Origin: a virus
Direction: 5' to 3' (one strand)
DNA: 39,236 nt
IMG/VR virus record: IMGVR_UViG_3300030098_001482
Span: 1-39,236 of that record
How positions within the stretch are numbered: position 1 is the stretch's first letter; every line of letters starts with the position of its first letter. Shown in pieces: positions 3,432 to 11,291 of this stretch. Under the pieces are notes generated by a model. That model ran no database searches and was not told the origin of the DNA. It saw only the letters and a program-made list of their open reading frames with translations. A program made the position numbers and the translations under genes.

Positions 3432-3659
3432 ATGGCGATGTATACACCACAACAAGAGTACGGATGCGACGGCACGGGATGCAACGAGTCAATTAAGATT
3501 GACATGGAGATAAGATATAGAAACTACGGAGATGATGATGGCTTCTATTGTTGGAAAGAAACAACCAAGACCTTAATCAACGATTGGGGTTGGACAGAGG
3601 ACGAGCAAAACGATGAGATTCACTACTGCGATGCTTGTTCAGAAAGTGAGGTGAACTAA
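3432..3659 (+). CDS. Small Cys-rich, probably zinc-binding protein
   Basis: A 75-residue acidic protein. Cysteines are arranged as C-x4-C near residue 13 and C-x2-C near residue 66 (YCDAC), with one more in between. This fits a single zinc-ribbon-like fold. GAGAGGAAAC precedes the start. The stop overlaps the next ATG (TAATG), so the two are probably translationally coupled. Function unknown. Confidence 0.65.
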   Translation: MAMYTPQQEYGCDGTGCNESIKIDMEIRYRNYGDDDGFYCWKETTKTLINDWGWTEDEQNDEIHYCDACSESEVN

Positions 3660-4038
3660 TGAAAGGCAAAGAAATGTATTTTCACATCCATCAAGATTAC
3701 GAAGGGGATATTATAAGTCCTTTTTGTCCTGATTCGTACAAGCTTAAAGAGCTAATTGGAACTAAAGTATTTAGTAACAATCAAATTCATAAAGTATTAG
3801 ATTTAGGATTTAAAATTACTTTCATTGTAAATATAGGAACTCTTTACGAAAAAATGTTAAAAGCTTTTATAAAAAACACTAGCCTTAAGCACGACGAGAC
3901 TACTAATAGCAACGAAACAATAACGATAATTCATAACAACCCTAATACAAAAGCAGGGGCATTACAGCCACATATAAGAGAACTAAAAGATTATCTCGCT
4001 AAAAAGAAATATGGTGAATATGAGGAGGTGAACTAATG
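3648..4038 (+). repeat. 14-base direct repeats flanking one gene
   Basis: GAGGTGAACTAATG occurs at 3648-3661 and again at 4025-4038. It carries the ribosome site, stop codon and start codon at both junctions of the 3659-4036 gene. The match ends exactly at 14 bases. The arrangement lets one gene be gained or lost by recombination without disturbing its neighbours. Confidence 0.7.
3659..4036 (+). CDS. Unknown protein, possible recent insertion (125 aa)
   Basis: A 125-residue protein with Ile/Lys/Asn-rich composition. By eye its codons are more AT-ending than those of the genes on either side. Both ends lie on identical 14-base copies of the coupled ribosome-site/stop/start sequence, so it looks like a cassette placed between two genes that once adjoined. 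Its Tyr-rich N-terminus and Lys-rich C-terminus show no known motif. Function unknown. Confidence 0.6.
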   Translation: MKGKEMYFHIHQDYEGDIISPFCPDSYKLKELIGTKVFSNNQIHKVLDLGFKITFIVNIGTLYEKMLKAFIKNTSLKHDETTNSNETITIIHNNPNTKAGALQPHIRELKDYLAKKKYGEYEEVN

Positions 4039-4416
4039 GGTAGATACTACAATGGAGATGTAGAGGGTAAATGGTGGTTTGGCGTACAATCCTCAGATAC
4101 TCCAGAAAAGTTCGGAGGTTATGAAACACATATAGATTACACAATATCCAACGATGACACGTTCAAGAACAGAATGGAGTGTATAGAGAATGACTTGGGA
4201 GATAGGCTACCGATTTTAGAAAAGTTCTTTAAGGAAGAACCTTACTATAACAATGAGAGGTTACACAAATATATGTCTAAACATATCGAGGGCTACAAAT
4301 TAGAGTTGGTAAGTCAAGACGTTGAGGACTACGCAGACTACTGCTTTGGGAAGGAAGTTCAACGGCACTTCAAGGAAAGTGGCGAGGATTATTGCAATGT
4401 TAATTCGGAGTTGTAA
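4036..4416 (+). CDS. Conserved-type phage protein with MGRYY and GVQSSD motifs
   Basis: A 126-residue acidic protein starting MGRYYNGDVEGKWWFGVQSS. I associate this opening with a hypothetical family seen in environmental phages and some larger viruses, of unknown function. It is coupled to the upstream gene by a TAATG overlap with a strong GAGGTG ribosome site. The middle part is helical, and the end has two cysteines close together (DYCFG, DYCNV). Confidence 0.65.
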   Translation: MGRYYNGDVEGKWWFGVQSSDTPEKFGGYETHIDYTISNDDTFKNRMECIENDLGDRLPILEKFFKEEPYYNNERLHKYMSKHIEGYKLELVSQDVEDYADYCFGKEVQRHFKESGEDYCNVNSEL

Positions 4417-4425
4417 AAAAACTGG

Positions 4426-4453
4426 GGAACTTTTGAAGTATTCCCGAGTTAAA
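4426..4453 (+). promoter_or_regulatory. Degenerate ECF-like early promoter, GGAACT-N16-GTTAAA
   Basis: GGAACT (4426-4431) with GTTAAA (4448-4453) at the exact 16-base spacing. The start codon of the next gene is 27 bases after the second element begins, as for the stronger copies. The second element departs from GTATAA, so it is less certain. Confidence 0.5.
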
Positions 4454-4474
4454 GAAGAAAAGAAAGGACAACAG

Positions 4475-4882
4475 ATGGACAGAGAATTAGCACAGAAGGG
4501 GATAGATGCCTACGTTGACGCAGAGTTTCCCCTGAACATATTCAAAAGTTGGGATGTCGTGATGAACTTCTTCAGTGAGGTAGAGCAAAAGACAGACGAA
4601 GAATCGCAAGAGATGTACGACAAGCTACCCGATGAGGTCATGCTTTACAGAGGCATACTAGCGAAGGAGAAGTTTGACACAAAGCTAGGGGCGTCATGGA
4701 CAACCAATGAGGAGGTAGCAAAGATGTTCGCCCTACGATTCAGTAGATTAGGAGGTACGCCCTACATTATAAAAGGCGAGATAGATAAGGAGAACATATT
4801 GTACTTCACAAATGCCAGACAAGAGTCAGAGGCTATAATCAATCCAGATTCTATGATATGGATGGACTACGAGGAGTTATAA
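4475..4882 (+). CDS. Probable ADP-ribosyltransferase-fold protein
   Basis: A 135-residue protein with the three signature positions of the R-S-E class of mono-ADP-ribosyltransferases in the right order: Arg59 in LYRG, a Ser-Trp-Thr-Thr strand at 74-77, and a Glu-x-Glu pair at 117-119 (QESEAII). Between them is the usual helix with MFALRF. T4 Alt and ModA/B are phage enzymes of this class that modify host RNA polymerase and other proteins; such a role here is inference. The frame is open upstream to 4322, but the ATG at 4475 has an AAAGGAC ribosome site and its own promoter at 4426. Closest alternative: an inactive member of the same fold. Confidence 0.6.
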   Translation: MDRELAQKGIDAYVDAEFPLNIFKSWDVVMNFFSEVEQKTDEESQEMYDKLPDEVMLYRGILAKEKFDTKLGASWTTNEEVAKMFALRFSRLGGTPYIIKGEIDKENILYFTNARQESEAIINPDSMIWMDYEEL

Positions 4883-5132: not shown

Positions 5133-5618
5133 ATGCTACGTGAAAAGATACATCAACTACGAGGCGAGGGATATAGCTATAATGCTATTTCTAAGCTCTT
5201 AAGATGCTCTAAATCAACGATTAATTATCATTTGGTACTTGGGGCTAAAGAAAAGATTTTAGCTCGAAATAAGCGATATAAATGGAAGAAGAAAGTTGAT
5301 GAATATAATCTTGGTTTGCGTGAAAGATACGAGTGGAAGTACGATTATTTATTAGATAGACAGTGCGTAGTGTGTGGCGAGAGTAATCCATTAGCTTTGC
5401 AGTTTGACCACAGAAGTAAATATATCAAGACGGATAACATGGCAAATCTTTTTCGGAACAAAGTGACGATTGAAGAGTTAGAGAAAGAGGCAAAGAAGTG
5501 CAGGGTGTTGTGTGCGAATTGCCACCAAATAAAAACAGCGAAGGAGACTAACAGAATGTTTTATCAGATATGTATGGAAAGAAAAATAGAGGATTTTATA
5601 AATGAATGCGGAAGATAA
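5133..5618 (+). CDS. HNH endonuclease with N-terminal helix-turn-helix
   Basis: A 161-residue protein. Residues 6-34 form a Hin-like helix-turn-helix (GYSYNAISKLLRCSKSTINY). The HNH nuclease follows, with a C-x2-C knuckle (Cys78, Cys81), Asp92-His93 as the active-site strand, and C-x2-C-H (Cys127, Cys130, His131). The family cuts DNA as free-standing homing or packaging-associated endonucleases. Its position between unrelated small genes, with no intron or interrupted gene nearby, suggests a free-standing selfish endonuclease. The start at 5133 has a GGAAAT-type site seven bases upstream. Confidence 0.85.
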   Translation: MLREKIHQLRGEGYSYNAISKLLRCSKSTINYHLVLGAKEKILARNKRYKWKKKVDEYNLGLRERYEWKYDYLLDRQCVVCGESNPLALQFDHRSKYIKTDNMANLFRNKVTIEELEKEAKKCRVLCANCHQIKTAKETNRMFYQICMERKIEDFINECGR

Positions 5619-7621: not shown

Positions 7622-7852
7622 GTGTTAGCGAATTACGACAAGATTATAGAGCAGATACAAGCCGAGATAAAAAGGATACGGGAGGCTAACAAGAAATTGT
7701 TATTGAAGAATAGTACATTGCAGTACGCAGAAAATACGATGTACTTAGCAGGTCTCTACAAAGCACTGAGCATCATAACTGACCATGTTCGTGATGAATT
7801 GAACGAGCTAGATAAGTGGGCAGACGACAAACAAAATGACATTTCTGCTTGA
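7622..7852 (+). CDS. Coiled-coil protein of unknown function (76 aa)
   Basis: A 76-residue protein started by GTG after GAAAGG. Residues 5-35 show heptad-like spacing of Ile/Leu with Lys/Glu between (IIEQIQAEIKRIREANKKLL), typical of a dimeric coiled coil. A second helix follows and an acidic tail. No known family recognised. Confidence 0.6.
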   Translation: MLANYDKIIEQIQAEIKRIREANKKLLLKNSTLQYAENTMYLAGLYKALSIITDHVRDELNELDKWADDKQNDISA

Positions 7853-7908: not shown

Positions 7909-8136
7909 ATGTTGTTAAATAAAACTGCAATTAGAAAAATGTTTCACGATGAGGGCATACAAGTGAATGTACTTGCACTCAATATTGTAGAACGCCTTGT
8001 GAGGTACGTGGTAGATTCTATGATAATTGGAGCAAAGTTTAAAAAAGTAAAAAGGGTTAAGCCTAGCAATATACAAAAGATATCTGATGAAGAAATAAAA
8101 GCTATGCTTATACACATGGATGATAGACCTTTTTAA
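7909..8136 (+). CDS. Small basic protein, candidate histone-fold DNA binder
   Basis: A 75-residue protein. An upstream ATG at 7855 is in frame, but the ATG at 7909 has TAGGGAAG at ideal distance. The layout is short helix (1-15), Gly-Ile-Gln-Val loop, long amphipathic helix (20-43), basic loop AKFKKVKRVKPSNI (42-55), last helix (59-68). This mirrors the histone fold, where the basic loop resembles the R-K-T-V-x-x-x-D-I segment of archaeal histones. Family assignment is by pattern only. It sits just before the recombination nuclease genes. An alternative is an unrelated helical DNA-binding protein. Confidence 0.45.
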   Translation: MLLNKTAIRKMFHDEGIQVNVLALNIVERLVRYVVDSMIIGAKFKKVKRVKPSNIQKISDEEIKAMLIHMDDRPF

Positions 8137-8863
8137 GATATACGATGACTACATTATGGACCTCAAGGGCGAAAACTATGATGCTCGATATGAAGGTAAG
8201 GACGAATGGTTCCACGCATCTGGTGCAGGTTTGTGTATGCGTAAACACTACTTCGCCCAGATAGAAAAGCTACCGACCGGAGACAAAGACTCTAACACGA
8301 TGCGACTCTTTAGACTTGGCGACTTGGTTCACGGAGATATGCAGGAAGCCTTAGAAAGATTTGCAAAGAAGAATGGGTACGAGGTTCACATTGAGACGGA
8401 GATTTTGATTCCACGATTGAATGTGCGCAGCTTTGTAGATGCTATGATTCTAAAGGACGGTGCATTGTACGATATCAAAACGTGCAACGATTTCAAGTGG
8501 CAATCCATCTTCGGAAGATACGGAAGCAAAGAGGCACCGCAAAATTATGCAATTCAGTTGGGAACTTATGGGCTTTATTATCGTGAAAACAATATAAAGA
8601 TAAACAAGATGGCACTGCTCTTTTATAATAAGAACAATTCACGTGTCAAGGAGTTAAAGGTGCCAAGAAGATATATCGATATCGCAGAGAGGTATTGGTT
8701 GAAGGTAGAAGAATTATTTAAAGACGGCTTACCACCGGTAGAGAAGGGGTTTTCTCCAGTAGAAGATTGGGAGTGTAACTCTAAATATTGCTCGTTTTAC
8801 GAGCCTTGTGGTGGTGGCATTAAAGGAATACAAGAAAGGGAAAACAAATGGAGCAAGAGGTAG
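8120..8863 (+). CDS. Cas4/RecB-like PD-(D/E)XK exonuclease
   Basis: A 247-residue nuclease of the RecB/Cas4 type. His71 lies in a GDLVHG helix, Asp107 in SFVDAMI, Asp118-x-Lys120 in YDIKT, and the QLGTY motif follows at 146-150. Four cysteines, Cys39 before the core and Cys219, Cys224 and Cys230 after it, match the iron-sulphur pocket of Cas4 and AddB-type nucleases. Such phage enzymes resect DNA ends for recombination. It overlaps the preceding gene by 17 bases and is followed by a single-strand-binding candidate and a second nuclease, so it forms part of a recombination module. No CRISPR array or Cas1 is present. Confidence 0.8.
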   Translation: MIDLFKIYDDYIMDLKGENYDARYEGKDEWFHASGAGLCMRKHYFAQIEKLPTGDKDSNTMRLFRLGDLVHGDMQEALERFAKKNGYEVHIETEILIPRLNVRSFVDAMILKDGALYDIKTCNDFKWQSIFGRYGSKEAPQNYAIQLGTYGLYYRENNIKINKMALLFYNKNNSRVKELKVPRRYIDIAERYWLKVEELFKDGLPPVEKGFSPVEDWECNSKYCSFYEPCGGGIKGIQERENKWSKR

Positions 8864-10470: not shown

Positions 10471-10721
10471 AGAATAAGCACAAGACCAATAACAAAGACA
10501 GAGACAAGCAGATTACACACTTGTTTGAAAGAGTGTATGGCTTAGGTCAAGAACTGCGGATGGTAAGGACCCTTTTAGAAAACTATATAATATGGAATGG
10601 CGATGTCGAAAAATTCACAAAATACTTACAAGAAGACCAAGAAAAAAGAGAATCAAAGACGGGGAAGAAGAAACCGTCAAAGAGGAGCAGAGCTACAAAG
10701 GCAAGCAGTAAATCTAGCTAA
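10467..10721 (+). CDS. Helical protein with Lys/Ser-rich tail, TTG start (84 aa)
   Basis: An 84-residue protein starting at TTG with GTTGGAG upstream and a four-base overlap with the preceding stop. The first two thirds form a predicted helix (THLFERVYGLGQELRMVR). The tail, residues 63-84, is very rich in Lys and Ser and is encoded by the same DNA as the N-terminus of the next gene in another frame. Function unknown. Confidence 0.55.
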   Translation: MKNKHKTNNKDRDKQITHLFERVYGLGQELRMVRTLLENYIIWNGDVEKFTKYLQEDQEKRESKTGKKKPSKRSRATKASSKSS

Positions 10722-10959
10722 GGAATTTAAACTAGAGGCTTTCAATCGAGACAGAGGTGGAGCGCAACATGAGATGGGTGACATAGAGATTGAAGGTAAC
10801 TACTACGGATGCAAAAGAAGAAAGTCTATTGCGACTTGGGTAAAGCCAGAGAAAGAAGAAGTGGGCGTGGTAATACGAGAAGATAGAGGCGCACCATTTA
10901 TGGTGGTCCCATTAGAGCACTACTTGTTCTTAGTGTCGCTTAGTAAAGAGAAGATTTAG
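10597..10959 (+). CDS. Phage Holliday-junction-resolvase-like protein
   Basis: A 120-residue PD-(D/E)XK-like protein. The basic N-terminus is followed by a helix with Glu32 (RGAELQRQAVNLAKEF), a NRDRGGAQHEMGDIEI segment with Asp62, then YGCKRRKS with Lys73 and an EVGVVIREDRG strand. This pattern matches small phage resolvase-like nucleases. The residue two before Lys73 is Gly71, where the standard motif would have an acidic residue, so the active site may be unusual. The start overlaps the previous gene by 125 bases; ATG 10603 is an alternative. It closes the recombination module. Confidence 0.6.
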   Translation: MAMSKNSQNTYKKTKKKENQRRGRRNRQRGAELQRQAVNLAKEFKLEAFNRDRGGAQHEMGDIEIEGNYYGCKRRKSIATWVKPEKEEVGVVIREDRGAPFMVVPLEHYLFLVSLSKEKI

Positions 10960-11040
10960 CGGGGGAGATTAGCAAAAGAAAAAGTTGGTTGGCGCTAACT
11001 AAAACTTTGAACAATCTGTGGCGTAAAAGTAGCCCGCTAA
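10956..11040 (+). promoter_or_regulatory. Inverted repeat spanning a stop codon and the next leader
   Basis: TTAGCGGG (10956-10963), which includes the resolvase stop codon, pairs perfectly with CCCGCTAA (11033-11040). A near-palindromic GTTGGCGCTAAC lies between. The right arm is followed by a short A run and then the AAAGGAG ribosome site of the 11067 gene. It could form a leader structure controlling that gene or protect the upstream 3' end. Confidence 0.35.
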
Positions 11041-11066
11041 AAATTAACAAACGAAAGGAGCCAAGA

Positions 11067-11291
11067 ATGGCATTTGAACATAAACCAAATACTGCTACAG
11101 TATTTTTTAACGGAAAAAAAAGCGGTGAGAACCAACCAGATTTCACAGGAAAGGGTAAGGTTGGAAATAGCTTGATGGAGTTCGCTATGTGGAGAAAGAA
11201 AACTCAGAAGGGTGATGAGTATTTTTACATGAGTTTTAAGGAACCATCAGAAAAATTCGGCAATAAAAAGAGTAATGACGACCCTTTTTAG
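11067..11291 (+). CDS. DUF736-like small beta protein
   Basis: A 74-residue protein. The frame is open further upstream to 10989, but the ATG at 11067 has an excellent AAAGGAG site. It begins FEHKPNTATVFFNGKK, continues QPDFTG and ends in an acidic DDPF tail. That opening is typical of DUF736-like proteins of phages and plasmids. The acidic Phe-ended tail is reminiscent of single-strand-binding proteins that recruit partners. A second DNA-binding role is possible but unproven. Confidence 0.55.
   Translation: MAFEHKPNTATVFFNGKKSGENQPDFTGKGKVGNSLMEFAMWRKKTQKGDEYFYMSFKEPSEKFGNKKSNDDPF

Follow-up and report, generated by a model that had tools for sequence, protein, structure and literature searches.

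In 2024, histones were described, on the basis of predictions, for phages that infect prokaryotes (PMC11390915); no experiments on them were found in the literature searched. The alpha3 histones, to which they belong, are defined by a shortened alpha2 helix and an alpha3 helix of 3-4 residues (Schwab et al. 2024, PMC11390915); for alpha2, we took a length 4-5 residues below that of nucleosomal histones as the criterion. "Phage histones" form a small alpha3 class which has a C-terminal helical tetramerisation domain and in which the RxTxxxD motif is missing, while K10 and K49 are conserved in its profile (Schwab et al. 2024, PMC11390915; example A0A2E7QIQ9). For another histone, HLp, the dimer core consists of V16, I20, L35, L39, L42, L47, V58 and F63, and the DNA contacts of loop L2 include K54 and R59 (PMC12701072).

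Here, we analyze a 75-residue protein encoded in IMG/VR record IMGVR_UViG_3300030098_001482, which comes from a tailed phage so far represented by metagenomic sequence alone. The window, that is, the whole stretch of DNA analyzed, has 39,236 bases and a GC content of 37.7%. The protein belongs to a family related to alpha3 histones, short histones that occur in some bacteria and archaea, and its gene lies among phage recombination genes.

A conserved gene in an early recombination block

The open reading frame starts with an ATG at position 7909 and its stop codon ends at 8136; the calculated pI of the product is 9.8. It was found in 10 other IMG/VR contigs with protein identities of 96-99%. 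Among these copies, 30 of 36 variable codons differed only synonymously, third positions accounted for 33 of 40 variable sites, and pairwise dS values were 0.28-0.82 versus dN values of 0.008-0.022. The gene is under purifying selection and, given the near-identical copies, the low dN relative to dS and the conserved ATG start, it is a genuine gene and not a chance reading frame. The ATG is common to all homologues. A longer reading of 95 residues from a TTG at 7849 was rejected as unconserved: an indel just 5' of the ATG breaks it in two contigs (L008 and L010), which places the start at 7909, and the matching extension is absent from a third (L023). A promoter and terminator scan gave no signal above chance. 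The gene and its neighbors are as follows.

7622-7852, + strand: conserved 76-residue upstream neighbor with no function assigned, syntenic in L022, L023, L025, L028 and L029
7909-8136, + strand: phage alpha3-type histone-fold protein of 75 residues (conserved ATG, purifying selection, family profile and fold match to alpha3 histones)
8120-8863, + strand: Cas4-like RecB-family nuclease (phrog_1706, 1.2e-17; phrog_1990, 3.2e-9; PDDEXK_1, 4.8e-5; cas4, 1.2e-8)
10597-10959, + strand: RusA-like/PDDEXK Holliday-junction resolvase of the same module (phrog_244, 6e-6)
10989-11291, + strand: probable SSB-like protein of the same module (phrog_18154, 0.0014)

The histone and nuclease genes overlap by 17 nt. 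Thus, two claims of the original prediction, that a basic protein of 75 residues is encoded at 7909-8136 and that it sits beside recombination genes, were borne out by the coordinates and pI and by the overlapping nuclease and the resolvase-like and SSB-like genes downstream. By hhalign, the upstream neighbor is not a histone (probability 0.1), and a search for a second histone within the window found none. The Cas4-like nuclease had no relative among INPHARED phages by tblastn; its C-terminal cysteines (CNSKYCSFYEPC) possibly mark an iron-sulphur nuclease.

Genes for terminase (phrog_38), portal (phrog_156) and major capsid protein (phrog_1328) are on the - strand, and the early block is on the + strand. 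The large terminase subunit shares no more than about 26% identity with those of phages of Helicobacter, Curvibacter, Vibrio and others. The strand arrangement bears on a possible role in the virion, in which the protein would compact DNA for packaging or enter the host cell with it. Giant-virus histones package virion DNA (cited in PMC11390915), and the same role has been suggested for tailed phages with histone H1-like proteins (PMC12619734); however, the histone gene is part of the + strand recombination block, on the strand opposite to the packaging and capsid genes, and we regard a virion role as very improbable.

Three other reading frames of the window were noted. The product of 4322-4882 has a YRG...SWTT...E-rich pattern resembling ADP-ribosyltransferases, with no Pfam match, and a similar-looking reading frame is present at 3280-3765 of contig L050. 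That of 5133-5618 has an HTH_38 domain followed by an HNH-like segment and resembles HNH proteins of the homing or phage type. In Pfam, that of 3659-4036 weakly matches Colicin_D, below the cut-off (E 0.0028).

Family and relationship to alpha3 histones

The single sequence had no significant match in Pfam, PHROGs, NCBIfam, PDB, INPHARED phages or PLSDB plasmids, and the window record gave no match to PF00808 above the cut-off. The loop motif on which the original prediction had drawn was therefore not, by itself, significant in the PDB, Pfam, PHROG and NCBIfam searches. Relatives were located by synteny, using contigs with a Cas4-like nuclease 71-85% identical to that of the window. At the same position upstream of this nuclease, they encode a protein of 68-76 residues that is 36-43% identical to the window protein. 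Profiles built from these syntenic proteins detected proteins of 63-69 residues in other phages (L040, L042-L050) and proteins of 101-116 residues with a C-terminal extension (L061, L063 and L066; hereafter the L061 group). Syntenic and distant homologues together make a family of at least 19 sequences of 63-116 residues, which align gap-free over residues 1-58. A scan of GTDB genomes using the family found no relative.

Two sets of histones outside this family were also seen. Four IMG/VR contigs (L160-L163, position about 4001) encode known-type alpha3 histones, the majority of which have an RKT..D-like motif; they were rejected as close relatives and are separate from the family of the window protein. 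A bacterial MAG contig (L158, 1740-1916 and upstream) contains a reading frame with two tandem alpha3 histone folds.

Recombination genes also accompany distant members of the family. In L049, the relative is directly 5' of RecE/YqaJ and RecT genes; in L061, a YqaJ nuclease is encoded 2.3 kb downstream; and the relative in L042 is preceded by genes for a RusA-like resolvase and a primase-helicase. This recurrence in separate lineages is suggestive of a role in recombination or replication. Early phage genes cluster generally, and small ones are often near recombination genes by chance. L061 also encodes an ArdC-like antirestriction protein (210-1133) near the histone relative.

When the profile of 19 members was searched against 177,635 PDB sequences, the top four matches were the four solved alpha3-histone sequences: HBb in two constructs (3e-4), HTkC (0.013) and HLp (0.039), each aligned over about 50 residues. 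Without the L061 group, the matches fell to noise level or were marginal, two of the three marginal ones being H2A.Z in register. Since this reduced profile was non-significant, we used hhalign with shuffled, reversed and neighbor-family controls against a set of 15 alpha3 histones. The clade of the window protein alone scored 26.9 (probability 72%), compared with a maximum of 17.2 among 100 column shuffles; the 16 sequences without the L061 group scored 36.7 (94%), compared with 15.6; and all 19 sequences scored 53.7 (97%). In none of the three sets did any of the 100 shuffles reach the real score. Reversed alignments preserve helical periodicity; they and four neighboring gene families scored 8-13. 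Even without intermediates, the window's clade aligned with alpha3 histones along its length. In the reverse direction, all reading frames of the viral loci were scanned with an HMM built from known alpha3 histones. The HMM detected canonical alpha3 histones and members of this family and nothing else, with E-values of 1e-10 to 2e-4 for the L061 group and 0.004-0.04 for the short proteins of L042, L043, L044 and L048; it did not reach the window's own clade directly. The family is thus related in sequence to known alpha3 histones.

Structure prediction was consistent with this relationship. AlphaFold2 with near-identical homologues only gave a weak model (pLDDT 68, pTM 0.38), and the fold assignment therefore rests on a second model, built with the 19-member alignment (pLDDT 85.5, pTM 0.66). 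The elements of the protein are as follows.

7921-7950, + strand: helix alpha1, residues 5-14 (KTAIRKMFHD), with conserved R9/K10
7969-8040, + strand: helix alpha2, residues 21-44, shorter than that of nucleosomal histones
8035-8061, + strand: basic loop L2, residues 43-51 (KFKKVKRVK), from the alignment, mapped to HLp K54, R55, T57 and R59 (PMC12701072)
8062-8070, + strand: one-turn alpha3, residues 52-54
8086-8121, + strand: extra C-terminal helix, residues 60-71, of lower confidence (block pLDDT 79, then 53)

Modeled as a monomer, the protein adopted a short-long-short three-helix histone fold and no different fold, so that the helix layout read from the letters alone was recovered in a confident model. 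Helix lengths are those of alpha3 histones (24 residues for alpha2 and 3 for alpha3), and the alignment with HBb is nearly gapless. The C-terminal helix is confined to the window's own clade in the alignment. The relatives in L042-L044 (KRLTPDLMWCALGN) may have a longer alpha3 like that of H2A.Z (KRITPRHLQLAI), unlike the window protein.

In VIA-align, the top seven matches were entries of HBb, HLp and HTkC, with Z 5.6-6.1 and rmsd 1.4-1.9 A for 55-60 aligned residues; histone folds, MHF and TAF among them, also made up almost all remaining matches. Foldseek gave the same alpha3 entries TM scores of 0.73-0.82 on the target, with E-values of about 0.1 to 2. In a viral structure library, the best matches were A0A516M1G1, A0A516LUS5 and A0A516LIY4, all proteins without a name. 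A Z-score near 6 is modest and unconvincing alone; it is the agreement with the sequence results that convinces.

These data also address the concern that the protein is some other small helical DNA-binding or regulatory protein, with helix lengths and a basic loop that resemble those of histones by chance. The lack of any single-sequence match and the low confidence of the first model would fit such a resemblance, but the profile, profile-profile and reverse HMM results with their controls, together with the improved model, argue against it, and we consider it highly unlikely. The histone-fold relationship, as originally predicted, is secure, and we hold it to be nearly certain.

Basic loop, dimer positions and proposed function

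The original prediction had likened an AKxxKVKRVKPSNI loop to the RKTVKxxDI segment of archaeal histones. The basic, K/R-rich loop at residues 43-51 is real; the motif itself is not there, as V47, R49 and N54 occupy the places of R, T and D in RxTxxxxD. All 19 sequences of the family have a hydrophobic residue at position 47, position 49 is R in 16 of them and T in the L061 group, and position 54 is not D. In addition, residues R41 and N45 of the face-to-face (FtF) tetramer (Haloferax D4GZE0 numbering) correspond to G41 and K45. Lacking both the RxTxxxxD motif and the FtF tetramer residues, the protein could bind DNA in an altered way or not at all.

In a gapless alignment, the dimer-core positions of HLp correspond to I8, F12, V27, V31, V34, I39, V50 and I55, which are hydrophobic, and its K54 and R59 to K46 and K51. 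As core and L2 contact positions map to hydrophobic and basic residues, the natural expectation would be dimerisation by handshake, with L1 and L2 forming a basic face. In helix alpha1, position 9 is K or R, and position 10 is K (R or Q in two), across the 19 sequences.

With the L2 clamp motif lost, the histone fold may no longer organize DNA and may serve instead as a protein-binding module like TAFs or MHF/CENP, for instance by joining the overlapping Cas4-like nuclease as a subunit or by regulating it. Gene overlap, the 4-nt distance to a RecE/YqaJ nuclease gene in one relative and the MHF and TAF folds among the structural matches agree with this possibility, as does the charge of the relatives, which varies, some being only weakly basic or nearly neutral (pI 6.6 in L028). 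On the other hand, dense K/R residues are kept in L2 and alpha1, and nearly all family members have basic residues at positions 9, 10 and 48/49; the adjoining nucleases are from different families (Cas4-like and YqaJ); and no nuclease of this kind was identified immediately next to the histone gene in L042 and L044. On balance, a purely protein-binding function appears unlikely.

We favor the view that the protein is a minimal phage alpha3-type histone, probably a dimeric DNA-bending or DNA-coating protein of the recombination/replication module; bending of DNA within this module is a reasonably probable function. We infer dimer formation, DNA binding and a role in recombination or replication along the following lines. 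Two copies would pair via antiparallel alpha2 helices in the histone handshake, and the paired K/R-rich L1/L2 loops and basic alpha1 residues would grip the backbone of double-stranded DNA with no sequence preference. The dimer would then bend or coat the duplex, as HBb of Bdellovibrio does, with bending as the simplest mode. It would be expressed alongside the early recombination genes and act on phage DNA that is undergoing replication or recombination, where it might shape or protect duplex beside the ends processed by the Cas4-like nuclease. A more specific proposal, which we offer tentatively and with some doubt, is that these proteins are a distinct minimal phage-histone family, with a conserved R in place of the classical L2 clamp, and act as recombination accessories that shape or guard duplex beside a resecting nuclease and an annealing protein.

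This family indicates that phage histones can escape Pfam, PHROGs and single-sequence searches, and that they may be only 63 residues long, without the signature motif and recurrent beside recombination genes in separate lineages. It also raises a testable question: does a phage histone fold handle DNA during recombination or replication?

Comparison with known histones

Archaeal nucleosomal histones of the HMfB type share with the window protein the histone fold and a basic L2 segment. They differ in that its alpha2 is shorter, its alpha3 is a single turn, and the signature motif and a PF00808 match are absent. The original histone interpretation is largely right, with the class corrected from a canonical archaeal nucleosomal-type histone to a phage alpha3-type one.

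The face-to-face histones HTkC (PDB 9F2C) and HLp (PDB 9QT0) match the window protein in fold and in the lengths of their helices (55 residues superposed, rmsd 1.4-1.5 A), whereas their RxTxxxxD motif and dyad residues R41 and N45 are both absent from the window protein. The best profile and structural match was HBb (Bd0055) of Bdellovibrio bacteriovorus, of the bacterial dimer class (PDB 8FVX, 8CMP and 9EZZ). Similarities include the short alpha2, one-turn alpha3, alpha1 lysines and basic L2. However, identity is about 10-14%, HBb is a host chromosomal protein, and it has RKTxxxxD where the window protein has V47, R49 and N54, so that the RKTxxxD motif of bacterial dimer histones is not found in the latter.

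Several features are shared with the phage histones of Schwab et al.: occurrence in tailed-phage metagenome contigs, low identity to other histones and lack of RxTxxxD. In the window protein, a helix predicted with lower confidence also follows the fold. A difference is seen at the C-terminus. The class is defined by its tetramerisation domain, but the window protein has only about 20 residues past the fold, and many relatives of 63-69 residues all but end there, so this domain is reduced or absent. The relatives of 101-116 residues (the L061 group) are closer to the described class. Since a single short helix makes up its C-terminal part, and almost nothing that of the 63-69-residue relatives, the window protein is, on the published description of the class, best regarded as a variant of the phage histones and not as an established member.
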